From the NCBI RefSeq assembly GCF_016132545.1, contig NZ_CP066167.1, forward strand, positions 833,001 through 897,000: DNA of 64,000 nt, written 5' to 3'. Under the pieces are notes generated by a model. It had not been told where the DNA came from. It saw nothing but the letters and a program-made list of their open reading frames with translations, and made no database searches. Position numbers and translations under genes: made by a program. Below are positions 15,488 through 32,397 of the stretch, in pieces; position 1 is the first letter of the stretch, and each line of letters opens with the position of its first letter. This DNA comes from Spongiibacter nanhainus. Its GTDB lineage: Bacteria; Pseudomonadota; Gammaproteobacteria; Pseudomonadales; Spongiibacteraceae.

Positions 15488-15521
15488 GAATGACGTAACT
15501 CTTATTGGTGTTATTTATCGA

Positions 15522-15542
15522 TGTCGTAAATTAACAATCAAT
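15522..15542 (+). promoter_or_regulatory. TGTCGTAAATTAACA element upstream of AraC regulator 2
   Basis: This element and its downstream CAAT match the element at 16966-16986 at 18 of 21 positions. It is 35 bp upstream of the minus-strand start at 15487. A second half-site 22 bp further is poor. Likely an autoregulatory site. Confidence 0.5.
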
Positions 15543-15675: not shown

Positions 15676-15697
15676 GTCAAGCCGCTAGGGTGGGGAG

Positions 15698-16642: not shown

Positions 16643-16806
16643 AGCTTTCTCCAGTATCTTATTGCTTATTGTTCTGCGGGCGTATTTTGCGGAAGCCCCG
16701 CTACGTTATCGCGCCATTTAGTGCTGTGAAGATGTCCTAAATGACGCCGGATTGTATTGGCTTAAAGCGATGATTAGAAAATAGCGAAGTCGGCAAAAGG
16801 GGCGAA

Positions 16807-16842
16807 TGCGAAAAGCGGACACGTGCTTGCGAATTTTGGCCA
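16807..16842 (+). promoter_or_regulatory. Putative AraC-type operator, TGCGAA-GGACA family, second copy
   Basis: TGCGAAAAGCGGACA (16807-16821) and TGCGAATTTTGGCCA (16828-16842) start 21 bp apart, repeating the arrangement at 13362-13397. The preceding GCGAA is also conserved. It lies about 165 bp upstream of the NmrA-like start and about 240 bp upstream of the dehydrogenase start. No other copy was seen in the window by eye. Confidence 0.62.
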
Positions 16843-16965
16843 GTCGCTCTTGTTAAGGCAAACCGCTTCATTAATTACGGTGAGCTGGATCGCATACTCC
16901 CAACGTTAAACAGCGGCGGTGGCTTGGGGTTTTTGGCTTGTACGGGCGGTGCGTCCTGTTAGTGC

Positions 16966-17002
16966 TGTCGCAAATTAACAGCCAATCTGTCTGCTACTAA
17001 CA
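16966..17002 (+). promoter_or_regulatory. Putative AraC-type operator, TGTCGC family, best paired copy
   Basis: TGTCGCAAATTAACA (16966-16980) and TGTCTGCTACTAACA (16988-17002) start 22 bp apart and end 77 bp upstream of the ATG at 17080, a good position for activation. The rest of the 437-bp divergent spacer (16643-17079) holds the other operator pair at 16807-16842 and no gene. Confidence 0.58.
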
Positions 17003-17079
17003 TCTTCTCCCTGCTACCTATTGGCTATTCTGAGCTCATCCAAATTTCTCTAACAACGATAAAAGTTGAGGATGTCACA

Positions 17080-18408
17080 ATGAGTAACGCTGCTGCTCAA
17101 GCTGTAGATTCAAGTAACACAGACTATCGGAATCTCGACGCACCTGTGTATAACTGGCCGGATGTTCCCAAGGGCAGTTTCACTATCACGGGTGCTGAGG
17201 CGACTCTGCCCGAACATATTGCCGAGTTTCAAAAGACCTTGCGTGACTTTGCCATCAACGTCATGCGTCCAATTGGTTTGAAACTGGACAAAATGACCCC
17301 GGAAGAAGTTATTGCTGAAGACTCTCCGTATTGGGAGTTCCGCAAAAAATACCTGGAATTAGGTGTAACCGTCGAGGCAATGATGGAGCTCGAGCCTAAC
17401 GAGGCGGCACTACTGTTCTCCATTTTGTTCGAAGAGTTGGGCTACGGCGATGCCGGTTTGGCTATTTCCGTGGCGGCGGGAATTCTGCCCCAGTGGCTGA
17501 GTGCCAAGTTCGGCCGCATGGATTTGTATAAAGAATTTCCTGATGAAGTTCTCGGCTGTTGGGGTATTACCGAACCCGATCACGGTAGCGATACCTTGGA
17601 CCCCAGTAAGGCCGCCGCATCACCGGTGGGCGACTATGGCCGGCCCAATTTGGTGGCGGATCTTACTGGCGACGATATTGTACTCAACGGCCAAAAGTCG
17701 GCGTGGGTATCCAACGGCGTTATCGCCGACGTATGTATTGTTTACTGCGCTGCCGATGTGGGTAATGGTCCCGATCCTACCCGCGGCGCGACTATCGTCT
17801 TCCCCATGAACTTGCCTGGCATTTCCCGGGGTAAACCTTTGGATAAGTTGGGGCAGCGAGCCCTGAACCAGGGGGAAATCTTCTTTGATAACGTGAAGAT
17901 ACCCAGAAAATATTTGCTTGCCGGCCCAGAAGACTATCAGCGTGCGCTGTACTGTATCCACTCTGAGGCCAACGCGCTGATGGGCTCGGTATTTGCGGGC
18001 TTGGCGCAGGCGGCGGCGGAGGCTGCATTGGATTATGCCCACGAGCGTAAAGCGGGCGGGGTAAAAATCATTCATCACCAGTCTGTTAAAACGCGTCTCT
18101 TCCATATGTTCCGCAAAGTGGAAGTGTCCCGAGCCCTTACCCGCCGGGTGCTGGCTTACAACAATGACGCTGCGGTAGCGGTGCCATCGCTGTGTTCGGC
18201 GATGTTTGCAAAAACGACTTCTACCCAAAACTGCTTTGAGGTGACCAGCGACGCGCTACAGATTTTTGGCGGCAACGGGCTTACCAAGGAGTACCCCATT
18301 GAGAAAATGTTGCGTGATGCTCGTGCCTCTATGATCGAGGACGGCTGTAACGAAGTTATTGCCATTAAGGGCGGTGCTTACCTCATCGATGAAGATAAGT
18401 TGGGTTAA
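17080..18408 (+). CDS. Acyl-CoA dehydrogenase (short form) of the catabolic operon
   Basis: 442 residues; standard acyl-CoA dehydrogenase with an N-terminal helical domain, the FAD/substrate segment WGITEPDHGSDT, GQKSAWVSNG, and the C-terminal GGNGLTKEYPIEKMLRDARA motif. The usual YEGT segment is replaced by IEDGCNEV, which still supplies a Glu, so activity is plausible but with altered active-site spacing. First gene of a dehydrogenase-thiolase-ligase operon, 9 bp before the thiolase, behind the TGTCGC operator pair. It oxidises an acyl-CoA, perhaps the side chain of a larger hydrophobic acid. Confidence 0.9.
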   Translation: MSNAAAQAVDSSNTDYRNLDAPVYNWPDVPKGSFTITGAEATLPEHIAEFQKTLRDFAINVMRPIGLKLDKMTPEEVIAEDSPYWEFRKKYLELGVTVEAMMELEPNEAALLFSILFEELGYGDAGLAISVAAGILPQWLSAKFGRMDLYKEFPDEVLGCWGITEPDHGSDTLDPSKAAASPVGDYGRPNLVADLTGDDIVLNGQKSAWVSNGVIADVCIVYCAADVGNGPDPTRGATIVFPMNLPGISRGKPLDKLGQRALNQGEIFFDNVKIPRKYLLAGPEDYQRALYCIHSEANALMGSVFAGLAQAAAEAALDYAHERKAGGVKIIHHQSVKTRLFHMFRKVEVSRALTRRVLAYNNDAAVAVPSLCSAMFAKTTSTQNCFEVTSDALQIFGGNGLTKEYPIEKMLRDARASMIEDGCNEVIAIKGGAYLIDEDKLG

Positions 18409-18417
18409 GGATTCAGC

Positions 18418-19653
18418 ATGAAGCAAAATGCCTACGTAGCAGGGGTCGGGATGACCCCTTTTGGCAACGCCATGGGGACGACGCTGAGCGACTTGGCTGG
18501 CGCCGCTATTCGCGAAGCCATCAAAGATGCCGGAATCTCGGACAAACAGTTGCAGGCGGCCTACATGGGTAATGCCGCAGCTGGGGTGATCACTGGGCAG
18601 GTTTGTGTGCCGGGACAAGTGGTTCTGCGACATCAGGGTATCGGCCGGATTCCGGTTATTAATGTGGAGAACGCCTGTGCTACGTCTGCTACCGCATTTC
18701 AGCAGGCTTGCACCATGGTGACCCTGGGGGCTTACGATGCGGTGCTGGTATGTGGCTATGAAAAGCTCTACAGCGATGATAAGGCCAAAACCTTTTCGGT
18801 GTTTACCGGCGCGATGGATGTTGATGACCTGGATCGCATAAAGCAAAAACTCCAGGCTCGCAATGATGCCATTGGCGTGGATCTCGACATGAGTCAGGCG
18901 GGGGTTTCCCGCTCCATTTTTATTGATATCTATGCCACCTGGGCACGGGAGCACATGGCCAAGTGGGGGACTTCTCAGCGGCAGCTGGCCGCCGTCTCCG
19001 CCAAAAATTCTTACCACGGCAGTCTCAACCCTCTATCCCAGTTCCGGGATGTGGTGTCAGTCGACGATGTGATGTCGGCGCGGCCCATTGTTGACCCTCT
19101 CACTTTGCCGATGTGCGCCCCTATCGGTGATGGTGCGGCTGCGGTGGTTGTTGTCAGCGAGTCCATGGCTAAGAAGCTGGGAATGGCGCGCTGCGTGCGG
19201 GTTAGGGCAGCGAGCTTGAATAGCGGCTGGGACCTGGCTGAAGAGGAGGCAGATATTGTTCCCCAGTTGGCAGAGCAAATCTATAGCGATGCGGAACTTG
19301 GGCCTGAAGACCTGAGCTGTGTTGAGTTGCACGACGCCTCTGCAATATCAGAAATCAAGTATTACGAATTCCTCGGATTGTGCGGCAATGGCGAAGGTGG
19401 CGATTTTGTCGAGTCCGGCGCCTCAACCCTGGGCGGAAAAGTGCCGGTCAACACATCTGGGGGATTGATGCGCAAGGGGCATCCCATCGGTGCAACTGGT
19501 GCAGCGCAAATCGTCGAATTGGTTACCCAGTTGCGAGGAGAGGCAGGTGATCGACAAGTAGACGGTGCCGATGTTGCCCTGGCTGAAAACGGTGGTGGTT
19601 ATATCGGCTCCGATGTGGCTGCCTTGGTATTGAGCGTCCTGTCTAAAAAATAA
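18418..19653 (+). CDS. SCP2-type thiolase / lipid-transfer protein-like acetyl-CoA acyltransferase
   Basis: 411 residues of the thiolase superfamily. Cys87 in NVENACATSA is the acylated cysteine; GHPIGATG and a terminal NGGG motif complete the site. The segment ELHDASAISEIKYYEFLGL replaces the classical second motif and is typical of SCP2-type thiolases and Ltp proteins. Those cleave 3-ketoacyl-CoA or act in retro-aldol side-chain removal of steroids and branched acids. It stands between the dehydrogenase and the CoA ligase, 11 bp before the latter. Confidence 0.88.
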   Translation: MKQNAYVAGVGMTPFGNAMGTTLSDLAGAAIREAIKDAGISDKQLQAAYMGNAAAGVITGQVCVPGQVVLRHQGIGRIPVINVENACATSATAFQQACTMVTLGAYDAVLVCGYEKLYSDDKAKTFSVFTGAMDVDDLDRIKQKLQARNDAIGVDLDMSQAGVSRSIFIDIYATWAREHMAKWGTSQRQLAAVSAKNSYHGSLNPLSQFRDVVSVDDVMSARPIVDPLTLPMCAPIGDGAAAVVVVSESMAKKLGMARCVRVRAASLNSGWDLAEEEADIVPQLAEQIYSDAELGPEDLSCVELHDASAISEIKYYEFLGLCGNGEGGDFVESGASTLGGKVPVNTSGGLMRKGHPIGATGAAQIVELVTQLRGEAGDRQVDGADVALAENGGGYIGSDVAALVLSVLSKK

Positions 19654-19664
19654 AAAGGTGTTCT

Positions 19665-21293
19665 ATGAGAGACGAGCGGATACTGGCGAATTTAATCGAA
19701 GCTAAAGCTGAGACCAAGCCAGATTTTAATGTGCTGACATTTGTAAATATTCTTCCCTCTGGCGAGTTTGACGACGAAACCCGCAGCTACCAGCAATTGT
19801 GGGATGAGGGGCAGCGGGTCGCGAATGCGCTGGTTAACGAAGGCATGGACCCCGGCGATAGTTTTGCGATTATGATGCAAAACCACCCTGAGTTTATCGA
19901 TGCGATGGTAGGTAGCTCGATTGCTGCTACCGTCTTTGTGCCTATCGACCCCCGCACCCGCGGAGACAAGCTCAACTACATGTTGCGCTGGGCAGACTGT
20001 AAAGGCGTATTCTGCGCCGATTATTGCCTGCCACAAGTCCTTGAGGTGTGTCAGCAGTTAGAGGACATTCGCTGGATTTGGGTGTTGGATACCGGTGAGG
20101 GCGTCAGGCTGCCAGACTCTCGGGTGGCGCTAACTAATTTTGCCCATATACAGGCGTCCAGTTGCTCGCCGATGAGCTGTCGCGTTGAGTCGCCGGAAGA
20201 AATCATGCAGATGCTTTATACCTCGGGGACAACTGGCGACCCCAAAGCCATCCGCGCACCCTATCTCCGCTTTGATGCCGTCTCCTCCCTTGGGCCTATG
20301 ATCGGTTTGCGGGAAGATGACAAGCCCTATTCCGGTTTATCGCTGACCCATGCCAACGCACAGTTAATCACGCTTGGAAACAGCCTGAAAATGGAGCTGC
20401 CCAGTGTATTCAGCCGTAAATTCACCAAATCCAGGCTTTGGGATATCTGTCGTCATTACGGCTGCACGATGTTTAACCTGCTGGGCGGTATGACCACGGC
20501 AATTTATAGTGAACCTCGAAAAGAAAATGATGCTGATAACCCGGTACGCTACATCCTTAGCGCCGGTATGCCAGCAGCCATTTGGGAGGACTTCAGTCAG
20601 CGCTTTGGTGTTGAGTTGTTTGAGTTCTATGCCGCTGCGGAAGGTGGGATGATGATGAACCCGCCAGGCACTGGTCCGGTTGGCAGTATTGGTAAGCCGC
20701 CTGCCAACCTTCATGCGTGGATCATCGATGAAGAGGGCAATGAATGTGGCCCCGGTGAGCGAGGAGAGATCGTCTTTCAGTCGGTTGATCCAGATATGCC
20801 TTTGAAAATCGAGTACTACAAAAACCCCGATGCATCAGCAAAAAAAGTGCGTGATGGCGTGCTGCATATGGGCGACATAGGTCATCGGGATGAGAATGGT
20901 TGGTTCTATTTTGATAGCCGCAAAGGTGATGAGATTCGCAGAAACGGTGACTTTATCGATATTGCAAGAATCGAAAAAGTGATCGCCGAGTTTGACGACG
21001 TCGCGGATGTGTTTGTTTATGGCATACCGGCGGCCAGCGGTGTGCCGGGTGAGAAGGATGTAGTGGCTGCCGTCGTCCCGGTGGAGGCGAGGGTATTCAA
21101 CCCGGACAACCTTTTGGGGCATTGTCGTCGAGCATTGGGGCGCACCGAGCTACCCAGCTATGTTCAGGTTATGTCAGAGATACCGAAAACGGCATCAGAG
21201 AAGCCTCAAATGCGTTTTTGCTATGAGCATTTTCAGGCACAACCTAACCATATTTATCGCTTTGATATACCTCAGATCAGTGTCGCAAATTGA
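19665..21293 (+). CDS. Class I adenylate-forming acyl-CoA ligase
   Basis: 542 residues. ATP loop YTSGTTGDPK at 185-194, the EFYAAAEGG motif, GDIGHRDENGWFYFDSRKGDEIRR hinge region, and a C-terminal lysine in PKTASEKPQ. It activates a carboxylic acid as acyl-AMP and then acyl-CoA; nearest in style to carnitine/crotonobetaine-CoA or FadD-type ligases, without a clear substrate signature. It supplies the operon's CoA ester. The last codons and stop overlap another TGTCGCAAATT element (21281-21295). Confidence 0.88.
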   Translation: MRDERILANLIEAKAETKPDFNVLTFVNILPSGEFDDETRSYQQLWDEGQRVANALVNEGMDPGDSFAIMMQNHPEFIDAMVGSSIAATVFVPIDPRTRGDKLNYMLRWADCKGVFCADYCLPQVLEVCQQLEDIRWIWVLDTGEGVRLPDSRVALTNFAHIQASSCSPMSCRVESPEEIMQMLYTSGTTGDPKAIRAPYLRFDAVSSLGPMIGLREDDKPYSGLSLTHANAQLITLGNSLKMELPSVFSRKFTKSRLWDICRHYGCTMFNLLGGMTTAIYSEPRKENDADNPVRYILSAGMPAAIWEDFSQRFGVELFEFYAAAEGGMMMNPPGTGPVGSIGKPPANLHAWIIDEEGNECGPGERGEIVFQSVDPDMPLKIEYYKNPDASAKKVRDGVLHMGDIGHRDENGWFYFDSRKGDEIRRNGDFIDIARIEKVIAEFDDVADVFVYGIPAASGVPGEKDVVAAVVPVEARVFNPDNLLGHCRRALGRTELPSYVQVMSEIPKTASEKPQMRFCYEHFQAQPNHIYRFDIPQISVAN

Positions 21294-21332
21294 CATTGAA
21301 AGGGTCGCATCCCGTCATTGTTGGGATGCGAC
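21281..21332. promoter_or_regulatory. TGTCGC elements and perfect 10-bp inverted repeat after the CoA ligase
   Basis: TGTCGCAAATTGACA (21281-21295) overlaps the ligase stop, and GGTCGCATCCCGTCA begins 22 bp later (21303). GTCGCATCCC (21304-21313) and GGGATGCGAC (21323-21332) form a perfect inverted repeat, so the minus strand reads TGTCGCATCCCAACA, again like the family. No T run follows, so this is more likely an operator cluster than a simple terminator. It lies 125-180 bp upstream of the RND gene. Confidence 0.5.
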
Positions 21333-21410
21333 ACCAACAATAAGCTTGATGCTAGATAAAGAAACATAACTAAGCATTAACTAACGTCGAAACCAAGTTG
21401 TTATATGTTG

Positions 21411-21447
21411 AGTCGCAAAAAAACAAGAAATGCGATTCACGCTAACC
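21411..21447 (+). promoter_or_regulatory. Degenerate TGTCGC-family pair just before the RND gene
   Basis: AGTCGCAAAAAAACA (21411-21425) matches the family at 12 of 15 positions. A poor second half CGATTCACGCTAACC starts 22 bp later. It ends 11 bp before the ATG at 21459, so if bound it might repress rather than activate. Confidence 0.35.
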
Positions 21448-21458
21448 GGGGAAAATAA

Positions 21459-23930
21459 ATGAATACAATACGAGCCCGTATAGCCATGGCCGTTCTGCGT
21501 CACCGCGGCATCGCCTGGCTGCTGTTCGGGGCGGTGACACTCTTTTTCGCGGTAGGCTTAAAGAACGTTACCTTGGAAACGGTCTTTTCAGATTTGCTGC
21601 CCAAAGATGACCCCTTTATCCATGTTTTTAAGGACCATCCCAATTTTGGGAACCCCTTGACGTACACCATAATGGTGAAAAATAAAAACGGCGATATCTA
21701 CAACCCCGACACTTTGCAAAAGGTGTGGAACCTTACACGGGATATTGACTTAACACCGGGTGTGGATCACGACCAGATATTGTCAATCGCCTCTTCCAAG
21801 GCCCGTTACGCCACAGCGACGCCCTTTGGTATCGATGCGCAGCCCTTGATGGGTGACTCTGTACCAAAATCGTCAGAAGAAATCGCACAACTGAAGGAGA
21901 ATGTCCGGAAGTCACCCAACGCGCGGGCATTTCTGATTTCGAAAGATGAGACTGCGACACTGGTGTCGGCCACTTTTATTGAACAGCGCCTGGACTACGG
22001 CGTGGCTTTTGACTTTGTGCAAAAAATTGCCGATGAAGCTCGCGACGATCAGCACGAAATTTATGTTGCTGGCCAGCCTGCGCTGACGGGTTGGGTCTAC
22101 GAATACCAGCATCAGATGATAGGTATTTTTGCGGCGACCCTTAGTGCCTTGGTGGTAGCGCTGATTTTGTACACCCAAAATGTTGCCGGCGTAGTTACGC
22201 CCGTATTCGCCAGTATTATCGCGGCAATCTGGGGTTTCGGCTTTGCGGGTTGGATGGGGCTTTCCATCGAGCCCTTGCTGATGATTGTACCGCTGCTGTT
22301 AATAGCGCGGTCATTTAGTCACTGCGTGCAATTTACCGAACGCTATTACGAAATTTACGATCAGGTTGGCGATAAAGTTCGCGCCGCTGAAATTACCACC
22401 AGTGTCATGATGGCGCCGTCGGTGCTGGGTGTAATCACTGACGCCGCCGGTATTTTGCTAATATCCATTGCACCGATTCCCGCCATGGAACGCTTTGCAT
22501 TTTTCTGCGGATTCTGGGCGATGATGCTGGTTCCAACCGGCGTATTCTTGGCTCCGCTATTGTTGTCAATTCTGCCTGCGCCTAAGAATATCGATAAAAT
22601 TGTTTCTGAGCAGTCTGGTGGTATTCACGGGCGCATTAAGGGCGTTCTCGAAAGTATTTCAACGCTCTCACAAGGGCGCCGGGCGCGCTATACAGCGGGT
22701 GTCTTCCTTGTGGTAGGGGTTTTCTCTGTCTACCACGCTTTCAATATTCAGATTGGTAACCCCGTAGAGGGCAGTAATCTGCTATGGGAAGACTCTGAAT
22801 TTAATACCTCGGTCGCAGAAATTAACAACCATTTTCCAGGTGTTAATACCCTCGAGATCATCATTGAAGATAAGGATGATGGCAATTCGGATCGGGTCGC
22901 AAAACAGGCTGATGCGGTATCTGTGATGCTGCAAATACAGCGGATTATGGAGTCTGGGGAAAATCCGCCACGGGCTACGCTGTCCTTTGCCGATTACCTT
23001 ATGGATGCAAATCGCCTGATCTCAGGTGGCCACCCCAAATGGTTGCCGCTGGATAACAACGATGCCGCGGTAAATGCAGCGGCGTCGGCAGTGCTTATGG
23101 GCACAAGTCCTAAAGCCTTTTCCAATGTCGTTGACTTTGAACTGCAGAACTCCACGGTGTCATTCTGGTACCCGGACAATAAGCAGGATACGGTGGATCA
23201 CGCATTGGCCAGTGCCCGCGCAGCGGTAGAAGTTGTCGGCACCGAGCACGACACCTTCACGGTGCGCTTGGGTAGCGGCACGATTGCGATTCAGCAGGCA
23301 ATTAACCATGTGGTCGAGCGTTATCATTGGGCCATTATGGGTTTGCTTAACCTGGTTATCCTCTGTGTCTCCAGTTACGCCTATAAATCGATTGTGGCCG
23401 GTGTCGTGCTGCTGCTGCCGGTCAACCTGTCCAACATGATTTTGACAACCTGCATGTCATTTATGGGTATCGGCCTCGATATCAACTCGCTGATGGTGGC
23501 CGCTATCGGTGTGGGTGTAGGTATCGACTACGGTATCTATCTCCTCAGTCGTATCTGTGAGGAGTATCACGAGCGGGAAGATTACGGTAAGGCCATAACG
23601 GCGGCGCTAACCACCACCGGCAAAGCAATCATGTTTACTGCCAGTATTATGCTGCTGGGTATTCTGCCCTGGTATTTCCTCTCTGGCCTAAAATTCCTAG
23701 CCGATATGGGGCTGCTGTTGGTGCTGGTTATGCTGATCAACATGGTGATTGCCCTGGTCGTATTGCCACTTTTGGTGTGGTTGATTAAGCCCAAGTTTGT
23801 ATCCAGCAAAGATATTTTGGTGTTGGGCGAAGGGATCGACGTCGGCAAGTTGCTTGCCGAAGAGGACGGTCGTGAGAAGAAGGGAGCTTCAGGCAGTAAT
23901 TTTGCTGTCGCGGCGGCGGTGGATTCCTGA
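21459..23930 (+). CDS. RND superfamily (MMPL-type) transporter
   Basis: 823 residues with two repeats of the RND/MMPL design: TM near 17-34, a periplasmic loop to about 215, a TM bundle about 218-372, TM about 411-427, a second loop to about 625, and a TM bundle about 632-780. The C-terminal half has GVGIDYGIYLLSRI, the helix-4-like segment with the acidic residue of this family. Proteins of this type (HpnN, MmpL relatives) move lipids or hydrophobic compounds and may use proton motive force. No separate TolC or membrane fusion protein is nearby; DUF1329, propeller and DUF1302 genes follow instead. Direction of transport is unknown. Confidence 0.9.
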   Translation: MNTIRARIAMAVLRHRGIAWLLFGAVTLFFAVGLKNVTLETVFSDLLPKDDPFIHVFKDHPNFGNPLTYTIMVKNKNGDIYNPDTLQKVWNLTRDIDLTPGVDHDQILSIASSKARYATATPFGIDAQPLMGDSVPKSSEEIAQLKENVRKSPNARAFLISKDETATLVSATFIEQRLDYGVAFDFVQKIADEARDDQHEIYVAGQPALTGWVYEYQHQMIGIFAATLSALVVALILYTQNVAGVVTPVFASIIAAIWGFGFAGWMGLSIEPLLMIVPLLLIARSFSHCVQFTERYYEIYDQVGDKVRAAEITTSVMMAPSVLGVITDAAGILLISIAPIPAMERFAFFCGFWAMMLVPTGVFLAPLLLSILPAPKNIDKIVSEQSGGIHGRIKGVLESISTLSQGRRARYTAGVFLVVGVFSVYHAFNIQIGNPVEGSNLLWEDSEFNTSVAEINNHFPGVNTLEIIIEDKDDGNSDRVAKQADAVSVMLQIQRIMESGENPPRATLSFADYLMDANRLISGGHPKWLPLDNNDAAVNAAASAVLMGTSPKAFSNVVDFELQNSTVSFWYPDNKQDTVDHALASARAAVEVVGTEHDTFTVRLGSGTIAIQQAINHVVERYHWAIMGLLNLVILCVSSYAYKSIVAGVVLLLPVNLSNMILTTCMSFMGIGLDINSLMVAAIGVGVGIDYGIYLLSRICEEYHEREDYGKAITAALTTTGKAIMFTASIMLLGILPWYFLSGLKFLADMGLLLVLVMLINMVIALVVLPLLVWLIKPKFVSSKDILVLGEGIDVGKLLAEEDGREKKGASGSNFAVAAAVDS

Positions 23931-24015
23931 TTCGCCGTCAGCTTTGAGCAACAAACGATGTTTGAACCGTTAAATTGAGTCAAAAGTAAATAGGGGGCTA
24001 CCCCTGGAGGTAAAA

Positions 24016-25398
24016 ATGCATATAAGAAAATACGATTTTGACTACAGTCGCCGCTTTTTCTTGGAAAAGACCGCTAAAGGTCTGGGTGGCGCCGGCGTTT
24101 TGGGATCAATGTGGCCAATGGTCGCCCACTCCGGTGAATGGAACAAAGCTTACCCCGAAGAGCTGACCTCTATTGAAGCCCATACCAAGGGCAAAGTAAA
24201 ACCCGGTGATGTTATCACTGCCGACAATGTCGAGCATGTCGAGCACCTCCTGGACCCGGTTGCGGCTATGCAGGTCAAGACTATGGGGCGCCGTATTCAT
24301 ATCGTTGAGCCGGTTAAAGATGTCAGCCAGTTGATGCCAGCAAGCTTTTTGGAGGCGACCCTGCGTAACTCCGGAAATGCAGTGTTGGACAAAAATGGCA
24401 ATGTCTACAACAAGGATGGTAGCCCCTGGAACGGTGGTATGCCTTTCCCCAATCCTAAAAACGGTGTTGAGGCGACCTACAATCTTACCTTGAGTTGGGG
24501 GCGCCACGATTATTCTCAATACGCAGTGCGCGATTGGGATATTGATGATGACGGTGACCTGTCGTACCAGTACGACTTCGTGTGGTGTGAATTGAATACC
24601 ACCGGTCGCAGTGACGGTAAGGTGTGGCGCGACAAGAAAGACCTGCTTCGTTATCAATCGGTGTTCTTTACCGCACCTAACGACAGTGCGGGTACGTCCT
24701 TTTTGAACGTCTGGCACTATGATCAGCGTAAATTCCCAGACCTGCACGGCTATATTCCGGCCTTCCGTCGGGTTCGCCAATTCCCCACCAACCAGCGATT
24801 CGAGCCTCTTGTTCCAGGTATTACGCTCTATCTGTCCGACGCCTGGGCAGCCGGTGATCCCCTGCAAACCTGGGGCAATTACAAAATTGTCGGTCGCCAG
24901 CCTATGCTGGGAACCATTGGGCCCCGAAATTTCCATGGCGGCTATAACGACAACTGGGAGAAACCCGTTCACGGTGGCCCCAAAGGTCAGACATTCTTTG
25001 ATACCTACATGGAGTTGGTGCCGGAGTGTCTGGTTGTCGATGCTGAGCCTACTGGCTATTCCCGCGCGCCGGTTGGCAAAAAGCGCACCTGGATCGATGT
25101 GCGCAACCAGATGTATGTGGCCTATAACACCTTCGATCGTCGCGGCGATATCTGGAAATCCTTCGAGCCGCACTACGCCCTGCAGTCCAACGACAAGACA
25201 ACGATAATGGATGGTGATCATCCCGCGTGGTCCTGGTCGAGTGTGCACAGCTACGATGTGCAGTCTGCTCGCATGAGCCGCTTTGTACAGGCGAAAACGG
25301 TAACCGGTGGTTACGACAGCCACTACAACGAAGATCGTACCGACGTTTACAACAAGTACCTGACTATTCAGGCCATGCAACGTCTGGGGGCTACCTAA
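24016..25398 (+). CDS. DUF1329 family protein with Tat signal, copy 1
   Basis: 460 residues. The N-terminus has a twin-arginine signal, SRRFFLE at 11-17, followed by a small hydrophobic Gly/Ala stretch and no lipobox. The mature part is DUF1329, a family thought to have a LolA/LolB-like half-barrel fold able to hold a lipid; that fold is from memory and not derived here. Conserved segments shared with copy 2 include SIEAHTKGKVKPGD, LLRYQSVFFT, TSFLN.WHYDQ and RFEPLVPG. The start ATG has a strong GGAGG. Its stop overlaps the next start. Confidence 0.86.
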   Translation: MHIRKYDFDYSRRFFLEKTAKGLGGAGVLGSMWPMVAHSGEWNKAYPEELTSIEAHTKGKVKPGDVITADNVEHVEHLLDPVAAMQVKTMGRRIHIVEPVKDVSQLMPASFLEATLRNSGNAVLDKNGNVYNKDGSPWNGGMPFPNPKNGVEATYNLTLSWGRHDYSQYAVRDWDIDDDGDLSYQYDFVWCELNTTGRSDGKVWRDKKDLLRYQSVFFTAPNDSAGTSFLNVWHYDQRKFPDLHGYIPAFRRVRQFPTNQRFEPLVPGITLYLSDAWAAGDPLQTWGNYKIVGRQPMLGTIGPRNFHGGYNDNWEKPVHGGPKGQTFFDTYMELVPECLVVDAEPTGYSRAPVGKKRTWIDVRNQMYVAYNTFDRRGDIWKSFEPHYALQSNDKTTIMDGDHPAWSWSSVHSYDVQSARMSRFVQAKTVTGGYDSHYNEDRTDVYNKYLTIQAMQRLGAT

Positions 25399-26330
25399 TG
25401 AAAGCGGTACGCGCCTTACTGACCCTGTCGCTCGTGGTGGCGACAGGGCAGGGATTTGCCAGCGACGAGGGCCTTATCTATCAAGGTACCGCCCACGATG
25501 CGTTCTTTGGCATAGACGTCACTGAGCGCGGGCTAGTCGCCGTTGGCGCAGGTGGCCTCTACAGCATCAGCGCCAATGGCAAGGACTGGCAGCACACATC
25601 AATCGCGTCGCCCGACGTTTCACTGCTGTCCGTAACCGAAAAAGGAGGCGATGCCCTGGCAGTGGGTCAGGGTGGGGTGGTGATGCGCCGGGACGGCGAT
25701 CGCTGGAGCGAAGTTGCCACGCCGACAAAAGAGCGACTGCTGTCTGTGGCGCAAGGGAAGGGCGGCCTGGCGTTGGCGGTCGGCGGCTTCGGCACCGTAC
25801 TTCGGTCCGTCGATGGCGGCAATAGCTGGGAAAAGCTGACTATCGATTGGGAGTCTCTGATTCAGCAACCCTACGAGCCGCACGTCTACAACTGCCTGGT
25901 TGATGCTAAGGGCGACATCTTTATTGTCGGCGAATTTGGCATGATTGCTCGCTCTCAGGACCGAGGGGATACCTGGCAAGCCTTGAATAGCGGTGAAGAG
26001 TCGCTTTTTGGCATCGCTATTAATGCATCCGGTATCGGCGTTGCAGTGGGACAAAGTGGCCTTGTCCTGCGCAGCGGTGATGGCGGCGAGAGCTGGCAGG
26101 AGCTGGACTCCCAGACCGGAGCCATACTGTTGGATGTCGCGGTCCGCGACGATGGCGCTGCCGTAGTCAGCGGTATTCGCGAAGCGCTGGCAGTATCGGC
26201 CAGTGGCCGGACAGTCAGGCGCCTGAACAGTCCAGAGTTCTTGGAGGACTGGTTTGTGGATGTGGCGGTATTCCAGCGTGACTTCTACCTCGTGGGGCAA
26301 CAGGCCCAAGTGGTTAAAGTAAAACTCTAA
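25398..26330 (+). CDS. YCF48-type seven-repeat beta-propeller, exported
   Basis: 310 residues starting at an ATG that shares the last A of the upstream stop codon (TAATG). A Sec signal peptide covers about residues 1-22 (MKAVRALLTLSLVVATGQGFA). The mature protein is seven repeats of about 40 residues with the pattern ...VAVG..G.V.RS.DGG.SW..L, as in YCF48/HCF136 and BNR-like propellers, which fits one seven-bladed propeller. It is found routinely beside RND, DUF1329 and DUF1302 genes; a scaffold or adaptor role in the periplasm is inferred. Confidence 0.85.
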   Translation: MKAVRALLTLSLVVATGQGFASDEGLIYQGTAHDAFFGIDVTERGLVAVGAGGLYSISANGKDWQHTSIASPDVSLLSVTEKGGDALAVGQGGVVMRRDGDRWSEVATPTKERLLSVAQGKGGLALAVGGFGTVLRSVDGGNSWEKLTIDWESLIQQPYEPHVYNCLVDAKGDIFIVGEFGMIARSQDRGDTWQALNSGEESLFGIAINASGIGVAVGQSGLVLRSGDGGESWQELDSQTGAILLDVAVRDDGAAVVSGIREALAVSASGRTVRRLNSPEFLEDWFVDVAVFQRDFYLVGQQAQVVKVKL

Positions 26331-26364
26331 TTACATACATGATCTTTGGTATGGGGACTAAATT

Positions 26365-28218
26365 GTGAAAATAAAAACTCATCATAAGCTTGTGACTGTC
26401 CTCGGTGCAGCGCTCGGTAGTGCACCGGTTTGGGGAGCCAGCGGTGAAGCCTTAGGTATAGACTATACATTTAGCGGTATGATCAGGCTCGAAGCCGGCT
26501 TGAAAACAGTCGACGAAGAAAACCCCTTTAATCAGCGTGGCAACCTATTTAACGGCAAAGAAGTCCAGCGTAACGGCGGTCTGCCAGTACTGGGTTTGCC
26601 GCTTCCCTCATTGACAGCGGACACTGCGACCCGCAACGGCGTGCCCGCCGATAACGACTTTAATCAGACTCAGGTCCGCATAGAAAATACGCTGCAGCTA
26701 CGCTTCAGCGACAGCTTCTCCGGAACCATTAAAATGCGCGGTATTTTTGATGCGGCGGAGTACGACGAATTCGATCCGGACGATGTCGACAGTAATCGCG
26801 TCGGTTATTTGTACGAGGACGGTCCAAACTATTTCGAAAATGACGACTTCGACGACGGTGGTTCGCAGCATCCGCTAGAGGTCGCCGGTGAACAGTACAT
26901 GGTGGATTTTCCGTCACTGTATTTGGACTACCAAAAGGGGCCGCTGCTGATCCGTACTGGTAATCAGCAGGTGGCTTGGGGCCAGGCGCTGTTTTTCCGG
27001 GTGATGGATGTTGCCAACGGCCTGGACCTTCGCCGTCACTTGATTCTTGATTTTGCCTCCGAGGAATACGCTGACGAACGGATGTCCGCGCCCGGAATCC
27101 GGGCCTCCTATCAATTTGCCTCGGGCTGGGAGCTGGACACCTTTATTCAAATGTTTCTGCCTTCGGTTTTGCCAAACCCAGAAACGCCCTACAACGTTAT
27201 TCCCACACAGTTTACCGTTCACGACCGTTACGAGAACTACGATGAGGAGTTCAACTCCGGGTTTCGTTTGAAAGGCTACTTTGGCGACTTCGGTGTGCAG
27301 TTTATGTATACCAACCGCTACAATCCGGATGGGGTGTTCCGTTGGACCAAGTCCAATGTTAATCGGGGGGTACCTATTATTCCTGGCTCTGGCGCGATCC
27401 TGGCAGAGACTCCTCTGGAGCGTGATCCTACCGGTGTGTGGAGTGCGGAAGAGTGGTTTACCTACTCCGGTATGGCTCGCCTCGATGGGATTGAGGGCCT
27501 TAACAAGCTGATCACAGACTTCCCGTCTTCCATGTTGTTGGGGGCAACGCCGGTACAAAACTTTGAGCAAGCCAACCAAGAGCTGGACTTCTTCTTCCAG
27601 GTCGCTGGCCCGCTCCGGGGGCACATAGAGCGCACCTACCACCGCGAAGATGTCTTCGCCACCGGCTTTAGTTACGTATTTTCTGGCGAGCCGGGCAGTT
27701 GGACTGATCAGCTGATTATGAACTTAGAGATCTCCTACACGCCTGACAAAACCTTCACGTCAATCGATCTGGGGCAGGAGTATATCGTCGAAGACGAATA
27801 TGTTTCTGCACTGGTGTTGGAAAAATATCAGCGCTTCAGCTCGTCCTTTCCGGCGACCTATCTGGTATTTCAGTGGATGCACCGCAGCGAGTCTGACCTG
27901 CTCGGCCGTCACTTAAGTGGCATGGGTGGCTCGGTCAACAACGCCCCCAAAGGTGTCGATGGCGGCTGGGATGGTTTGGTACTGGCGGCGCAACAGCCCT
28001 TCCCCGGTCTGGTGTGGCGGGCCGATTTCTCCATGCTTTACGACACCCGGGGCGGTTTGTTTATACAGCCGGCGCTGAAGTGGAAACCCAGCGGTAACTT
28101 GAATGTTGAGTTCTACTATAACTATCTGGACGGCTCGTTGGGTGATGAGAACGAAAACATTATCGAAACCATCGAATACGCCGAGGAGTTTGGTCTCCGG
28201 GTCGCATACCAATACTGA
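26365..28218 (+). CDS. DUF1302 family protein, predicted outer-membrane beta-barrel
   Basis: 617 residues from a GTG start with a GGGGA site. A signal peptide ends near residue 25 (PVWGA). The rest is rich in alternating aromatic/polar strands and ends RVAYQY, the terminal aromatic typical of proteins inserted by Bam. Size and composition fit DUF1302, a family predicted to form large barrels. It is placed to let a hydrophobic compound cross the outer membrane in partnership with the periplasmic proteins before it. Not demonstrated experimentally as far as I know. Confidence 0.85.
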   Translation: MKIKTHHKLVTVLGAALGSAPVWGASGEALGIDYTFSGMIRLEAGLKTVDEENPFNQRGNLFNGKEVQRNGGLPVLGLPLPSLTADTATRNGVPADNDFNQTQVRIENTLQLRFSDSFSGTIKMRGIFDAAEYDEFDPDDVDSNRVGYLYEDGPNYFENDDFDDGGSQHPLEVAGEQYMVDFPSLYLDYQKGPLLIRTGNQQVAWGQALFFRVMDVANGLDLRRHLILDFASEEYADERMSAPGIRASYQFASGWELDTFIQMFLPSVLPNPETPYNVIPTQFTVHDRYENYDEEFNSGFRLKGYFGDFGVQFMYTNRYNPDGVFRWTKSNVNRGVPIIPGSGAILAETPLERDPTGVWSAEEWFTYSGMARLDGIEGLNKLITDFPSSMLLGATPVQNFEQANQELDFFFQVAGPLRGHIERTYHREDVFATGFSYVFSGEPGSWTDQLIMNLEISYTPDKTFTSIDLGQEYIVEDEYVSALVLEKYQRFSSSFPATYLVFQWMHRSESDLLGRHLSGMGGSVNNAPKGVDGGWDGLVLAAQQPFPGLVWRADFSMLYDTRGGLFIQPALKWKPSGNLNVEFYYNYLDGSLGDENENIIETIEYAEEFGLRVAYQY

Positions 28219-28260
28219 TTGAAGCGACGTAAACAAATTTCAGCCTGAATGGGACATTTG

Positions 28261-28286
28261 CGGCGGCGTCATGCCGCCGGTTTTTT
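28261..28286 (+). terminator. Rho-independent terminator inside the transport gene run
   Basis: GGCGGC (28262-28267) pairs with GCCGCC (28273-28278) around GTCAT and is followed by GG and six T. It separates DUF1302 from the second DUF1329 gene, only 26 bp before the latter's ATG, so it may act as an attenuator that lowers expression of the downstream genes. Confidence 0.8.
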
Positions 28287-28312
28287 CCTTATCATGCTAA
28301 GTGAAGGTGGTT

Positions 28313-29692
28313 ATGAGTTTTGTCATCCCCCGTTACGGAAGGCAGTTCGCACGCAGGGAGTTTTTAAAGCTCGGTGCGGGTTTCGCCGGCGCCGGTGTGC
28401 TGTCGCCATTGTGGGCTGCGATGGAGGAACACGGCGAGATCAATAAGGCTTACCCGGAAGAGTTGCTGTCCATAGAGGCCTATACCAAGGGCAGGCTTAA
28501 AGCCGGTGACTATATCGACGTCAACAACGTCGAGCTAGTGAAAGAGCTATTGGAGCCGGTTAAGTACTACCAGGTTAAAAACATGGGCCGGCGCTTAAAG
28601 CTGCGGGAGACGACTCAGGAAGTAATGAGGCTCAGCCCCTACGAGTACATGGAGGCAAGCTTTAAGCACCGCGGACTGGCGCGCTTTGACGAGAAGGGCA
28701 ACGTGGTTACCGGTGAAGGTAAGCCCTGGATCGGCGGCTTGCCGTTTCCCGATGCCAAGACCGGGGTCGAGTTTTTTGCCGGTTTAACCATGAGTTGGGG
28801 TCGCCACGATGCGTCGTTCTACCCGATTCGGGAATACGACCTCAACCTTGAAGGCAAGGTGACCTATGGCTACGAACTGGGCTGGGCAGAATATGCGCCG
28901 GTCGGACGAGTCAGCTTTCCCGACGTGTACTGGGAAGGGCACGAAGACATGCTGCGCTACCAAAGCGTGTTCTTTACCCAGCCCAATAGCGTTCGGGGTA
29001 CATCCTTTCTGAACAACTGGCACTACGACCAGCATAAGTTTCCCGAGTTATTCGGCTACATCCCGGATTTTAAGCGTATCCGTCGTTACCCCACCGACCA
29101 GCGCTTTGAGCCCTTGGTGCCCGGATCCAGCCTGTATCTGTCAGACGCCTGGGGCGCTGGCGATCCGCTCCATACCTGGGGCAAATACCGCATCACTTGG
29201 CGGGGGCCCTTGCTGGGTGCTGTGAGCGGGGCGTGGGAGAGCACCGATGACAATTGGCAGCACGGTGTGCACGGCGGTCCACAGGGGCAGACCTTCTGGG
29301 ATACCGAACTGGAACTGGTGCCAGAAGCGATTGCCGTTGATGCCGAACCGGTTGGTTTTCCCCGTGCGCCGGTAGGGCGAAAGCGGGTGTGGTTTGACGC
29401 CCGTACTCAGTTGCCACTGGGTATGGTGACTTACGACCGCCGTGGCGAGTTATTTAGATCCTTTGACGGTGCTTATGGGCTTTACGAGAAGCCCGATGGC
29501 CAGCGGGTGATGGACGGCAAGCACACCTATTGGTCCTGGGGCCACGCCCAGGCCTTTGATGTGCAGTCGGGCAAAATGACACGTATCGAGCAACTGGCCT
29601 CTATCGGCAACGGCCACCGCATGAAAGTGAACGACGAAGATATCTATTCCCGATATTTGACCAATACCGCGTTGCGGCGACTCGGGAACTAG
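28313..29692 (+). CDS. DUF1329 family protein with Tat signal, copy 2
   Basis: 459 residues from the ATG at 28313, preceded by GAAGGTGG; a GTG 12 bases earlier is the alternative. Twin-arginine signal ARREFLKL near residues 13-20, then a GA-rich hydrophobic stretch. It is clearly a paralogue of the protein at 24016, sharing INKAYPEELLSIEAYTKGRLKAGD-like and WHYDQHKFPELFGYIPDF-like segments over its whole length. It sits behind a terminator, so its expression may differ from copy 1. The two copies might carry different substrates or form a pair. Confidence 0.86.
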   Translation: MSFVIPRYGRQFARREFLKLGAGFAGAGVLSPLWAAMEEHGEINKAYPEELLSIEAYTKGRLKAGDYIDVNNVELVKELLEPVKYYQVKNMGRRLKLRETTQEVMRLSPYEYMEASFKHRGLARFDEKGNVVTGEGKPWIGGLPFPDAKTGVEFFAGLTMSWGRHDASFYPIREYDLNLEGKVTYGYELGWAEYAPVGRVSFPDVYWEGHEDMLRYQSVFFTQPNSVRGTSFLNNWHYDQHKFPELFGYIPDFKRIRRYPTDQRFEPLVPGSSLYLSDAWGAGDPLHTWGKYRITWRGPLLGAVSGAWESTDDNWQHGVHGGPQGQTFWDTELELVPEAIAVDAEPVGFPRAPVGRKRVWFDARTQLPLGMVTYDRRGELFRSFDGAYGLYEKPDGQRVMDGKHTYWSWGHAQAFDVQSGKMTRIEQLASIGNGHRMKVNDEDIYSRYLTNTALRRLGN

Positions 29693-29741
29693 ACGCCCAA
29701 TAACAGAACTAGTAATCCATTATTAGAATCAGGAAGTAGCG

Positions 29742-30737
29742 ATGAGCGATGTATATCAGGCCCTGGTGGCCAAACGCAGTGACACCGGGCTCAGTGTTGG
29801 CTTTGAGCAGCTGGGTGCTGATGAGATCGGCGATGGTGATGTCGAAGTAGCCGTGGAGTACTCCACCCTCAATTACAAAGACGGACTGGCCATCTCCGAT
29901 GCCATCCCCATCGTTCAGGCGCCTTCGTTAATTCTGGGAATCGATATGGCGGGTACTGTTGTGTCCTCTCAGTCTGACCGCTTTCGGGTTGGCGACAGGG
30001 TGGTACTAAACGGCTACGGCGCCTCAGAAACCCACAATGGTGGTTACACCCAGCGCCTGCGAACCCGCAGCGAGTATCTGGTACCGCTGCCGTCGCGTTT
30101 CACTACCAAGCAGGCGATGATTATCGGTACAGCCGGCTATACCGCCATGTTGTCGATTATGCGCCTTGAATCACTGGGTATTATGCCTGAGTCCGGTGAG
30201 GTTCTGGTGACCGGCGCCTCTGGCGGCGTGGGTACGGTGGCAATCATGCTGCTTGCCACCATGGGCTATCGGGTTACCGCCTCAACAGGGCGGCTGCAAG
30301 AAACCGACTTTCTCAAGAGCCTGGGCGCGACCGCGGTGATCGATCGCAACGAGCTGTCCGAGCCCGGTGAAATGATGCAGGAACCGCGCTGGGCCGCCGC
30401 AGTTGATTCCTGTGGCAGTCACACCCTTGCCAATGTGCTGGCGCGGATGCACTACGACGGTGTAGTGACCGCCTGTGGCCTGGCACAGGGTCTGGATTTG
30501 CCCGGCAACATGATGCCCTTTGCGCTGCGCAATGTGGCGCTGTTGGGGGTCGACTCCGTTCATGCGCCGATGCAGCGCCGCCAAGAAGCCTGGGAGCGAC
30601 TGGCCAAGACCGTCGATATGGAAAAGCTGGAAGCGCTGGCTGTTGAAATTCCCTTTGCACAAATACCCGAAGCGGCGGGACAAATACTGCAGGGGCAAAT
30701 ACGCGGACGGGCCATCGTCGATATTGCCGGCGTCTAG
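29742..30737 (+). CDS. AcuI/YhdH-type acrylyl-CoA reductase-like quinone oxidoreductase
   Basis: 331 residues, zinc-free medium-chain dehydrogenase. YSTLNYKDGLAI near 40-51, GIDMAGTV, NGGYTQRLRT, the NADPH-binding VTGASGGVGTVAIMLLATMGY near 156-176 and GVDSVHAPMQRR mark the AcuI/YhdH branch, which reduces acryloyl-CoA to propionyl-CoA with NADPH. In this cluster it may reduce a short or branched enoyl-CoA released by the thiolase step. The gene begins a run with two SDR genes. Confidence 0.85.
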   Translation: MSDVYQALVAKRSDTGLSVGFEQLGADEIGDGDVEVAVEYSTLNYKDGLAISDAIPIVQAPSLILGIDMAGTVVSSQSDRFRVGDRVVLNGYGASETHNGGYTQRLRTRSEYLVPLPSRFTTKQAMIIGTAGYTAMLSIMRLESLGIMPESGEVLVTGASGGVGTVAIMLLATMGYRVTASTGRLQETDFLKSLGATAVIDRNELSEPGEMMQEPRWAAAVDSCGSHTLANVLARMHYDGVVTACGLAQGLDLPGNMMPFALRNVALLGVDSVHAPMQRRQEAWERLAKTVDMEKLEALAVEIPFAQIPEAAGQILQGQIRGRAIVDIAGV

Positions 30738-30773: not shown

Positions 30774-31595
30774 ATGAAAATGGGACTAGATGCTTTTTCC
30801 CTGGCCGGGAAGGTGGCTGTGGTGACCGGCGCCGGTGCCGGTATTGGCGCCGCCGTGGCGCGTTGTTACGCGGACGCCGGTGCCGCTGTAGCGCTTACGG
30901 ATATTGATGCCCAGCGCTGTGAGGCAGTGGCCGCTGAATTGCGAGAGGGGGGCGCGGTTGTGTTTACCCTCACCATGGATGTCAGCCGTGAGTCGGACTG
31001 GGAGCAGTTGTGCTCGGCGCTGGAAGATTGGAAGGGGCGCTGGGATGTGCTGCTCAATAATGCGGGGATCTATATCGGTGGCAGCGTTGGATCCAATACC
31101 ACAGAACAATTGCAGCGTATTCACGATATCAACGTGGCATCGGTCTTTTTGGGCACCCGTTTTGCCGCCGCCGCCATGAAACCGGGTGGGACTTTTGGTC
31201 ACGGTGGTTCGATTATCAATCTGTCCTCCATTGCCGGGCTGATCGGTGTGCCCGGTCATAGCATCTATGGTGCCAGTAAAGGCGCGGTGGCGTCTTTTAG
31301 CCGCCACGCCGCGGTGGAGTTTGCCCGCTTTGGCTACGGTGTTCGGGTTAACTCATTGCACCCGGGGCTGATCGATACGGCGATGGGCCATATGGTGTTG
31401 CAGGATTTTGTCGATGTGGGCCTGGCTCCAGACACTGATACTGCGTTGTCTATGCTGCGCGACCAAATGATTCCCTGCGGCAGGCTGGGCACGGTGGAGG
31501 ATGTGGCCAATGCGGCGCTGTTTTTGGCAGCAGATGCCAGCAGTTACGTCACCGGCACAGAGCTGACTGTGGATGGCGGTTTTGTCGCGGCGTAA
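30774..31595 (+). CDS. Short-chain dehydrogenase/reductase 1
   Basis: 273 residues, classical SDR. TGAGAGIGAAVA (NAD(P) loop, near 19-30), an acid in TDIDAQRC suggesting NAD preference, NNAG, catalytic Ser in LSSIAG and YGASK. The C-terminus ends GTELTVDGGFVAA. The start at 30774 follows AAGAGGTAGAAG. It is 36 bp after the AcuI-like gene and 31 bp before the second SDR; together they could oxidise hydroxyacyl-CoA or alcohol intermediates. Confidence 0.87.
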   Translation: MKMGLDAFSLAGKVAVVTGAGAGIGAAVARCYADAGAAVALTDIDAQRCEAVAAELREGGAVVFTLTMDVSRESDWEQLCSALEDWKGRWDVLLNNAGIYIGGSVGSNTTEQLQRIHDINVASVFLGTRFAAAAMKPGGTFGHGGSIINLSSIAGLIGVPGHSIYGASKGAVASFSRHAAVEFARFGYGVRVNSLHPGLIDTAMGHMVLQDFVDVGLAPDTDTALSMLRDQMIPCGRLGTVEDVANAALFLAADASSYVTGTELTVDGGFVAA

Positions 31596-31626: not shown

Positions 31627-32397
31627 ATGGACTGCACAGGTAAAGTCGTTTTGGTCACTGGCGCGGCCAGTGGTATTGGCGCCGCCAGTTGTCGCGCCCT
31701 GGCCGCTCGCGGCGCAAAAATCGCGCTGAGCGATATCGATGTCGATACCGGCGAGGCGCTGGTTAATGAGTTGCGCGAGTCCGGCGCAGAGGCCGCCTTT
31801 ATCCCCCTGGATGTCAGAGACGAGGCACAGTGGCGGACTGCGGTGGACCAGGTGCTTGCCCAGTTTGGCGCGCTGGACGGCCTGGTCAATAACGCCGGGA
31901 TTGCCGCGATCTGCGGCATTGAGGAGGAAACCCTCGAGGGGTGGCGGCGCACCCAGGATATCAATACCGATGCCGTGTTTCTCGGTTGCCGGGAAGCCGT
32001 GCGGGTGATGAAAGGACGGGGCGGTAGCATTGTTAACGTGTCCTCTATCGAAGGGATTGTCGGCGACCCGATGTTGCCGGCCTACAACGCCAGCAAAGGC
32101 GCCGTCCGCGCTCTCACCAAGTCTCTGGCGCTGTACTGTGCCGAGAATGGCACCGGCATTCGGGTGAATTCCCTGCACCCCGGTTATGTCGCCACGCCTC
32201 TGGTCAGCGGAGCGCTGGACAAACTAGCTGCCGCCGAGGCGGAGGCCTTTGCCAATAGAGTGGTGGCCAGTATTCCGATGGGGCGTATGGCAGAAGCGGA
32301 CGAAATTGCCGAGGGCGTGGTGTTCTTGATCTCGGAGAGTTCTCGCTACATGACGGGGTCGGAATTGATTATGGATGGCGGCTATACCGCCAGATAA
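31627..32397 (+). CDS. Short-chain dehydrogenase/reductase 2
   Basis: 256 residues, classical SDR with TGAASGIGAASC, SDIDVDTG (acidic residue for NAD), NNAG, Ser in VSSIEG and YNASK, and the terminal GSELIMDGGYTAR. It is paralogous to SDR 1 in layout but not a recent copy. A GGAGAGAG site precedes the ATG. Probably a 3-hydroxyacyl-CoA or hydroxysteroid-type dehydrogenase; the substrate cannot be told from the sequence. Confidence 0.87.
   Translation: MDCTGKVVLVTGAASGIGAASCRALAARGAKIALSDIDVDTGEALVNELRESGAEAAFIPLDVRDEAQWRTAVDQVLAQFGALDGLVNNAGIAAICGIEEETLEGWRRTQDINTDAVFLGCREAVRVMKGRGGSIVNVSSIEGIVGDPMLPAYNASKGAVRALTKSLALYCAENGTGIRVNSLHPGYVATPLVSGALDKLAAAEAEAFANRVVASIPMGRMAEADEIAEGVVFLISESSRYMTGSELIMDGGYTAR

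Follow-up and report, generated by a model that had tools for sequence, protein, structure and literature searches.

The closest described relatives of the genes examined here are envelope systems from several bacteria. One is AmeABCD of Castellaniella defragrans 65Phen, reported in 2018 together with its deletion mutant; it combines a DUF1302 protein (AmeA), a DUF1329 protein (AmeB), a YCF48/COG4447 protein (AmeC) and a resistance-nodulation-division (RND) transporter of the HAE3 type (AmeD), encoded in a catabolic island, and its deletion impairs growth on apolar monoterpenes, a defect that acetate relieves (PMC6394551). In Pseudomonas putida, PP_0765, PP_0766, PP_2018 and PP_2019 were proposed in 2024 to form a transport system needed on Tween 20, with contacts among the parts predicted by AlphaFold, some of them weak (PMC10866462). 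Four-gene sets predicted to be controlled by phenol regulators have been interpreted as tolerance genes (PMC6449761), and a 'nanopod' cluster of the benzene-degrading ORM2a is highly expressed on a hydrophobic substrate, in a report that also cites impaired growth of a Delftia DUF1329 deletion mutant on phenanthrene (PMC13101534). Here we describe a five-gene module at positions 21459-29692 of a 64,000-nucleotide stretch of Spongiibacter nanhainus DNA (the window; bases 833001-897000 of a 4.08-Mb genome in one contig), which encodes, all on the + strand, an RND transporter, a first DUF1329 protein (D1), a YCF48-like protein, a DUF1302 protein and a second DUF1329 protein (D2). We consider it likely that these genes make up a single two-carrier transport cassette of the AmeABCD kind that spans the envelope and serves the substrate or a toxic intermediate of the adjacent acyl-CoA pathway.

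The module is a variant of the AmeABCD kind and not a strict member, set apart by gene order and DUF1329 number: AmeABCD has four genes in the order A-B-C-D and one DUF1329, whereas the window has five genes, the RND first, and two DUF1329 genes. The P. putida set resembles it in joining DUF1302 with DUF1329 and a periplasmic protein with an efflux transporter, but its locus numbers place it in two pairs that probably lie apart, with one DUF1329 protein named, rather than in a single five-gene run (PMC10866462). The ORM2a cluster shares a porin-like protein, DUF1329, YCF48 and an MMPL transporter with the window but includes extra genes, among them one for a universal stress protein, lists one DUF1329 and comes from an anaerobic member of the Desulfobacterota (PMC13101534). 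HAE1 tripartite RND pumps, in contrast, have a membrane fusion protein (MFP) and a TolC-type channel; the window operon shows no such family, and a Pfam scan of 30 window genes between 1837 and 43551 found neither component.

Recurrence of the gene set in sequence indicates that the module is real and co-inherited. Open reading frames and Pfam/NCBIfam matches returned the five genes, all on the + strand, with the families and the overall coordinates given in the original prediction, apart from two starts: YCF48 most likely begins at the ATG at 25398, overlapping the D1 stop, rather than at 25227, and D2 probably begins at the ATG at 28313 rather than at 28301. The genome carries three complete modules in the order RND-D1-YCF48-DUF1302-D2, and these account for every DUF1329 gene (six) and every DUF1302 gene (three) found there. 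Between copies the RND proteins are 57-78% identical, the DUF1302 proteins 44-73% and the YCF48 proteins only 33-39%, and the three D2 genes are 60-72% identical to each other versus 43-55% to the D1 gene in the same module. The neighbours differ from copy to copy: the window copy adjoins an acyl-CoA operon, the copy at L007 lies by an AraC gene, a zinc-type reductase gene and a 466-amino-acid gene with weak, sub-threshold oxidoreductase matches, and the copy at L008 lies by an acetoacetyl-CoA-ligase-like gene (below the model cut-off) and a LuxR/MalT-type regulator.

Related loci were the best 80 of 97 relatives by RND similarity, a sample that leans to close kin, and gene order was counted in the 50 of these 80 with at least 7.5 kb after the RND gene; many loci are near-copies, so the counts are not independent. 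The five genes stand in order in 22 of the 50, one of them with a further RND, and no partner gene follows the RND within 7.5 kb in three. Taken with the three copies in the genome itself, this places the co-occurrence far beyond chance, as the original prediction had expected. Across 21 genomes of the window's family, 24 module RND genes are accompanied by 48 full-length DUF1329 genes. In 23 of these modules a DUF1329 gene follows the RND on the same strand at a distance of 79-167 bp and another at 4.4-4.9 kb; the 24th has one divergent DUF1329 gene. In G155 (L126:8978-18622), a DUF1329 gene nearest to the D2 types is divergent from the RND and not downstream of it. At L023:17194-20701 and at the left ends of L039, L042 and L043, a second RND gene comes directly after a D2-type DUF1329 gene; it shares about 60% identity with the first RND and is cut by the end of the stretch. 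No D2 relative was detected in 7 of the 21 family genomes, and one more has a fragment only. In a 143-genome sample of the class any D2 relative occurs in only 5 genomes, the window's own included; the module is therefore patchy.

The co-occurrence of the four families had been described as gammaproteobacterial, and its range proved wider. Among four plasmids examined of 26 records with an RND relative, RPME01 of the betaproteobacterium Methylibium petroleiphilum PM1 (NC_008826.1, locus L121) carries the exact five-gene order, annotated gene by gene, with RND, D1 and D2 proteins 55%, 58% and 56% identical to those of the window. This module has an alkane 1-monooxygenase, rubredoxins and a LuxR-type gene in its vicinity, whereas the window has an acyl-CoA operon and AraC genes; by order and product the PM1 neighbours probably correspond to the methyl tert-butyl ether (MTBE) monooxygenase cluster as set out in the accessible text of PMC4517660, which makes no mention of the module. 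The PM1 plasmid also holds a second, inverted module copy (L121:23363-30382) in which an IS3-type element (ISMpe1) interrupts the DUF1302 gene. Cupriavidus pBB2 shows the Ame gene order with an RND 24.6% identical to that of the window, Aromatoleum plasmid 2 has another four-gene order beside acyl-CoA genes, and a Pseudomonas veronii plasmid carries YCF48 and RND pieces near phenol hydroxylase genes. A record titled Klebsiella pneumoniae (L055, a metagenome-assembled genome) has a 55% identical RND relative and is probably mislabelled or mis-binned.

The RND protein matches PF03176 (MMPL) above its cut-off (E 7e-25); its best NCBIfam match is the HAE3 model TIGR00921 (E 1.8e-46, residues 14-479), whose 158.6 bits fall below the cut-off of 351.9, and it weakly matches the HpnN, BstA and MmpL3 models. 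It has about 12 hydrophobic segments when overlapping peaks are merged. In an alignment that used 74 of 92 RND matches, six residues are kept in all 74 relatives: R284, S287, H288 and Q291 of transmembrane segment 4 (TM4) and Asp690-Tyr691 of TM10. We considered this TM4/TM10 relay as a unique trait and rejected the idea, as S-H-x-x-Q and D-Y also occur in distant YCF48-linked RND proteins, and in nearly all of the more distant relatives shown (though not in L120), and thus mark the wider family, not this variant. Two other RND proteins of the genome that were compared likewise have no TM4 Asp. A YCF48 gene adjoins the RND in 27 of 29 phylum-survey loci examined (the remaining L092 ends too early to judge, and L120 shows no YCF48), and the pair therefore looks like the core of a wider family.

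Both DUF1329 proteins match PF07044 (D1 with 211 bits, D2 with 158), and D1 also matches PF17131 with 32.3 bits (cut-off 30). Their predicted export by the twin-arginine translocation (Tat) pathway agrees with the motifs SRRFFLEK in D1 and ARREFLK in D2. In a survey that left out L087, L025 and L047, a twin arginine occurs within the first 70 residues of all 44 D1 and all 29 D2 relatives, with a stricter Tat-like motif in 42 and 28. The structure model of D1 (predicted local distance difference test score, pLDDT, 85.0; predicted template modelling score, pTM, 0.86) is closest to LolA3 (9tp6; Z 23.2, root-mean-square deviation, rmsd, 2.3, 238 aligned), and also aligns with the solved DUF1329 structure 4z48 (Z 20.9) and with LolA/LolB (Z about 9-11); since none of the best matches begins before residue 146, they say little about the N-terminal part. 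D1 is thus predicted to have a LolA-like fold, shared with the LolA/LolB lipoprotein carriers. It differs from LolA in an extra N-terminal part of about 100 residues, in its gene neighbours and in its twin-arginine signal; LolA uses Sec. Strand alternation in the DUF1329 sequence gave no clear hydrophobic face.

The window's D1 and D2 share 51% identity. In a tree of 83 of 92 DUF1329 matches, a single group (support 82/93, not starred) takes in 29 of 30 D2-position genes and four others, but no D1-position gene; the D2-position gene L047 falls outside it. The D1-position genes sit outside the D2 group and do not form one clade (4 changes), and the nearest relatives of the window's D1 come from Neomelitea, Zhongshania and another Spongiibacteraceae bacterium. 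Both kinds occur in families of the Alpha- and Gammaproteobacteria, and at the 85% level six positions separate the groups. Read from this tree, D1 and D2 are old paralogs held in fixed positions.

YCF48 matches PF14870 (47 bits) and solved Ycf48 chains (E 6e-11), and both it and DUF1302 have signal-like N-termini as read from the sequence. DUF1302 matches PF06980 with 89.7 bits. A sequence search against solved chains, with E values up to 1, matched none for DUF1302. Its structure model (pLDDT 85.6, pTM 0.85) places OprD/Occ channels best in the VIA comparison (Z about 20-21.6, rmsd about 3.3 A, about 300 aligned, 7-11% identity), led by OccK3 at Z 21.6 and followed by the exporter AlgE at Z 19.3, and Foldseek ranked Campylobacter MOMP, chitoporin and general porins first. 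DUF1302 is thus predicted to be an outer-membrane barrel with a porin/OprD-like fold, which agrees with the barrel originally proposed; its best-conserved stretch is a loop, residues 202-241.

The module lies, as first described, between an acyl-CoA operon (dehydrogenase, thiolase and AMP-forming ligase upstream) and reductase genes (one AcuI-like and two of the short-chain dehydrogenase/reductase (SDR) family downstream). The same genes flank window-type modules in six related loci from five genomes: two AraC genes, dehydrogenase, thiolase and ligase on one side and AcuI-like, SDR and SDR genes on the other. A seventh locus, whose contig ends after D2, shows the left flank only. The pathway ligase, at an identity of 64% or more, has 13 copies in 12 genomes, 11 of them with a module adjoining.

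A 15-bp sequence, TGTCGYAAATTRACA, links operon and module. Its three exact matches in the whole genome fall within this cluster, one near an AraC gene, one ahead of the dehydrogenase gene and one ahead of the RND gene. One-mismatch sites elsewhere in the genome number 5, versus 2 matches for a control pattern. Eighteen other genomes contain 22 exact sites, two each at 9 of 10 module-bearing loci, where the second site falls between ligase and RND and, in G154 as in the window, overlaps the ligase end. G149 and G152, where the module next to the operon is lost, have one exact site each. Ahead of its RND remnant, G149 retains a copy that has one additional mismatch, and the interval from ligase to AcuI in G152 yielded no site even at 3 mismatches. 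Six of seven genomes that lack the operon have no exact site. AraC proteins may bind this repeat, a putative operator, and the module appears to share a genetic switch with the adjacent degradation pathway.

A terminator-like hairpin lies in the gap between DUF1302 and D2. Such hairpins occur in that gap at 18 of 29 loci under the stricter input rules (19 of 30 in a looser earlier count), versus 0.83 expected from shuffles (maximum 3 in 60), and the same scan gave 0 of 47 for the RND-D1 gap and 2 of 49 for the YCF48-DUF1302 gap. The hairpin sequences vary between lineages, and in the window the whole 102-base stretch folds only moderately better than shuffles (z -1.93). About 26 bases separate the T run from the D2 start, too short for a promoter; we therefore infer partial read-through or an mRNA-stability element, by which the hairpin would set the D2 level apart.

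The gene content of the pathway points to a class of compound only. We attempted to name a substrate from the operon dehydrogenase, Ltp-like thiolase, AMP ligase, AcuI-like reductase and two SDR genes and arrived at no single compound; NCBIfam matches of the ligase, thiolase and dehydrogenase all fall below cut-off among the best 25 of each. The content suggests that an acid is activated to its CoA ester somewhere in the pathway. Beside the AraC genes, a DUF5938/saccharopine-dehydrogenase-like gene (12134-13315, - strand) is found in the same relatives at 72-83% identity. GC content is 0.50-0.56 across the catabolic and transport genes (window 10001-30000) versus 0.55-0.62 in the rest of the window, and could reflect acquired DNA. 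An antisense frame of 424 amino acids within D1 (24106-25380) was judged a codon-bias artefact. Coordinates are collected in Table 1.

Table 1. Features of the transport module and its surroundings, in window positions (aa, amino acids).
Feature	Position	Strand	Basis
RND transporter, HAE3/MMPL type, 823 aa	21459..23930	+	Pfam/NCBIfam models, hydrophobic segments, alignment
D1, first DUF1329, 460 aa, twin-arginine signal, predicted LolA-like fold	24016..25398	+	profile, motif, model
YCF48-like exported protein (propeller family), 310 aa	25398..26330	+	PF14870, N-terminus, solved Ycf48 match
DUF1302, 617 aa, predicted outer-membrane beta barrel, porin/OprD-like fold	26365..28218	+	PF06980, model
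Terminator-like hairpin with T run, between DUF1302 and D2	28261..28286	+	hairpin scan
D2, second DUF1329, twin-arginine signal; alternative GTG start 28301	28313..29692	+	PF07044, motif
15-bp repeated site TGTCGCAAATTGACA ahead of RND gene, overlaps ligase stop, putative operator	21281..21295	+	
15-bp repeated site TGTCGCAAATTAACA ahead of acyl-CoA dehydrogenase gene	16966..16980	+	
15-bp repeated site TGTCGTAAATTAACA upstream of AraC-family gene 14450-15487(-)	15522..15536	+	
Perfect 10-bp inverted repeat GTCGCATCCC/GGGATGCGAC, no T run, between AMP ligase and RND	21304..21332		read directly
AraC-family regulator	13465..14463	+	
AraC-family regulator	14450..15487	-	
Acyl-CoA dehydrogenase, head of neighbouring pathway operon	17080..18408	+	
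Thiolase / lipid-transfer-protein-like	18418..19653	+	
AMP-forming acyl-CoA ligase	19665..21293	+	
Acrylyl-CoA-reductase-family (AcuI/YhdH-like) reductase	29742..30737	+	
SDR reductase	30774..31595	+	
SDR reductase	31627..32397	+	

From these parts we infer a path, with its direction, ligand, energy source, carrier roles and binding regulator. The RND, driven by protons via Asp690-Tyr691 of TM10 and Ser287-His288 of TM4, would take a hydrophobic molecule from the inner membrane, with YCF48 sitting on the transporter or assembling it. The soluble LolA-fold DUF1329 proteins would then carry the molecule across the periplasm, and the DUF1302 barrel would let it through the outer membrane. D1 and D2 would be two specialised carriers, with the hairpin ahead of D2 setting the level of D2 on its own. 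Outward movement, which we find somewhat likelier than uptake, would remove excess substrate or intermediate from the membrane. A more specific form of this proposal, which we consider less likely than not, is a plug-in transporter wired to the pathway by a copy of its operator, in which two LolA-type carriers would hand over between the membranes by analogy with LolA and LolB and the hairpin would dose the second carrier through read-through or mRNA processing.

Several observations weigh against an AmeABCD-kind cassette that serves the adjacent pathway through two carriers. Ten of the 50 loci show RND-DUF1329-YCF48-DUF1302 with a single DUF1329 gene within 7.5 kb (five of these ten have a second elsewhere in the stretch), L017 and L079 have no D1, and D2 stands beside a second RND in L023, L039, L042 and L043; a strict and obligatory series of D1 then D2 is weakened by loci that lack either gene and by these D2-second-RND pairs. 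The tenth module-bearing locus (G145) has one exact 15-bp site, G155 has one elsewhere without the operon, and 11 of the 29 DUF1302-D2 gaps have no hairpin, including that of the genome's own third module, L008. In G149 (L125:9743-10349) the pathway frames are full-length and the module is a remnant, the RND start beside the D2 end, and no further relative of either in that genome exceeds 30% identity; G152 (L127:10837-11046) has an empty site of about 200 bp between the ligase and the AcuI-like gene and carries another module elsewhere. The module is therefore not indispensable, and from these two genomes it behaves as a removable cassette. The ameABCD mutant, finally, grows normally on perillyl alcohol, aldehyde and acid, and its real-time Nile Red efflux equals that of the wild type (PMC6394551). 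The idea of such a transport route is not new, having been put forward for AmeABCD in 2018 (PMC6394551) and for P. putida in 2024 (PMC10866462). As originally predicted for this locus, a dedicated route with neither TolC nor an MFP is supported by the predicted folds, the co-occurrence and the shared site, but by analogy with AmeABCD the normal growth on perillic acid does not favour an acid as its ligand.

The shared 15-bp site also fits uptake, in which the same parts would bring a hydrophobic acid, ester or hydrocarbon inward to the acyl-CoA ligase: the site is common to the RND and the ligase/dehydrogenase/thiolase operon, and OprD/Occ proteins, the nearest solved folds of DUF1302 by VIA, are uptake channels. 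RND proteins, however, usually transport substrate outward, the fold of the exporter AlgE comes almost as near, and the G149 operon persists without the module. Nile Red builds up slightly more in de-energised ameABCD mutant cells, and the published dye data, like the published work generally, lean to export (PMC6394551). Taking both sides, we regard uptake as the less likely direction. A somewhat better case, though still short of even, can be made for D1 and D2 as parallel carriers of two ligands, such as substrate and intermediate, with no relay between them and a hairpin that tunes their ratio. Their 51% identity and anciently separate groups, the loci where one or the other is absent and the D2-type genes beside a second RND all agree with it; yet all 24 family modules keep both DUF1329 genes, as joint need predicts, few positions split the groups at the 85% level, and a gene absent from one locus could be present in another part of the same genome. 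The lipid connections of the parts point in a third direction, since LolA/LolB, which D1 resembles, and HpnN, BstA and MmpL3, whose models the RND weakly matches, concern lipid movement: the module might shift membrane lipid between the membranes during growth on hydrophobic compounds instead of moving a catabolic substrate. The differing neighbours of the three copies, the site shared with one pathway operon and the family genomes with no D2 relative or a fragment only make such envelope maintenance improbable.

In the accessible text of the open-access DUF1329/DUF1302 literature we found no report of two anciently separate carriers in fixed places, of a 15-bp site shared by a pathway operon and an RND, of a hairpin before D2 or of natural empty sites. 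The locus bears on how hydrocarbons, terpenes and similar greasy substrates pass the two-membrane envelope, and on whether such RND systems protect or feed cells. It links a complete five-part module to one pathway through what appears to be a shared switch, the repeated site, and relatives that have the same pathway operon with and without the module provide a natural comparison. It also yields predictions, in an environmental marine bacterium, for the Asp-Tyr residues of TM10 and the Ser-His residues of TM4, for a periplasm served by two carriers and for a hairpin that would set their dosage.

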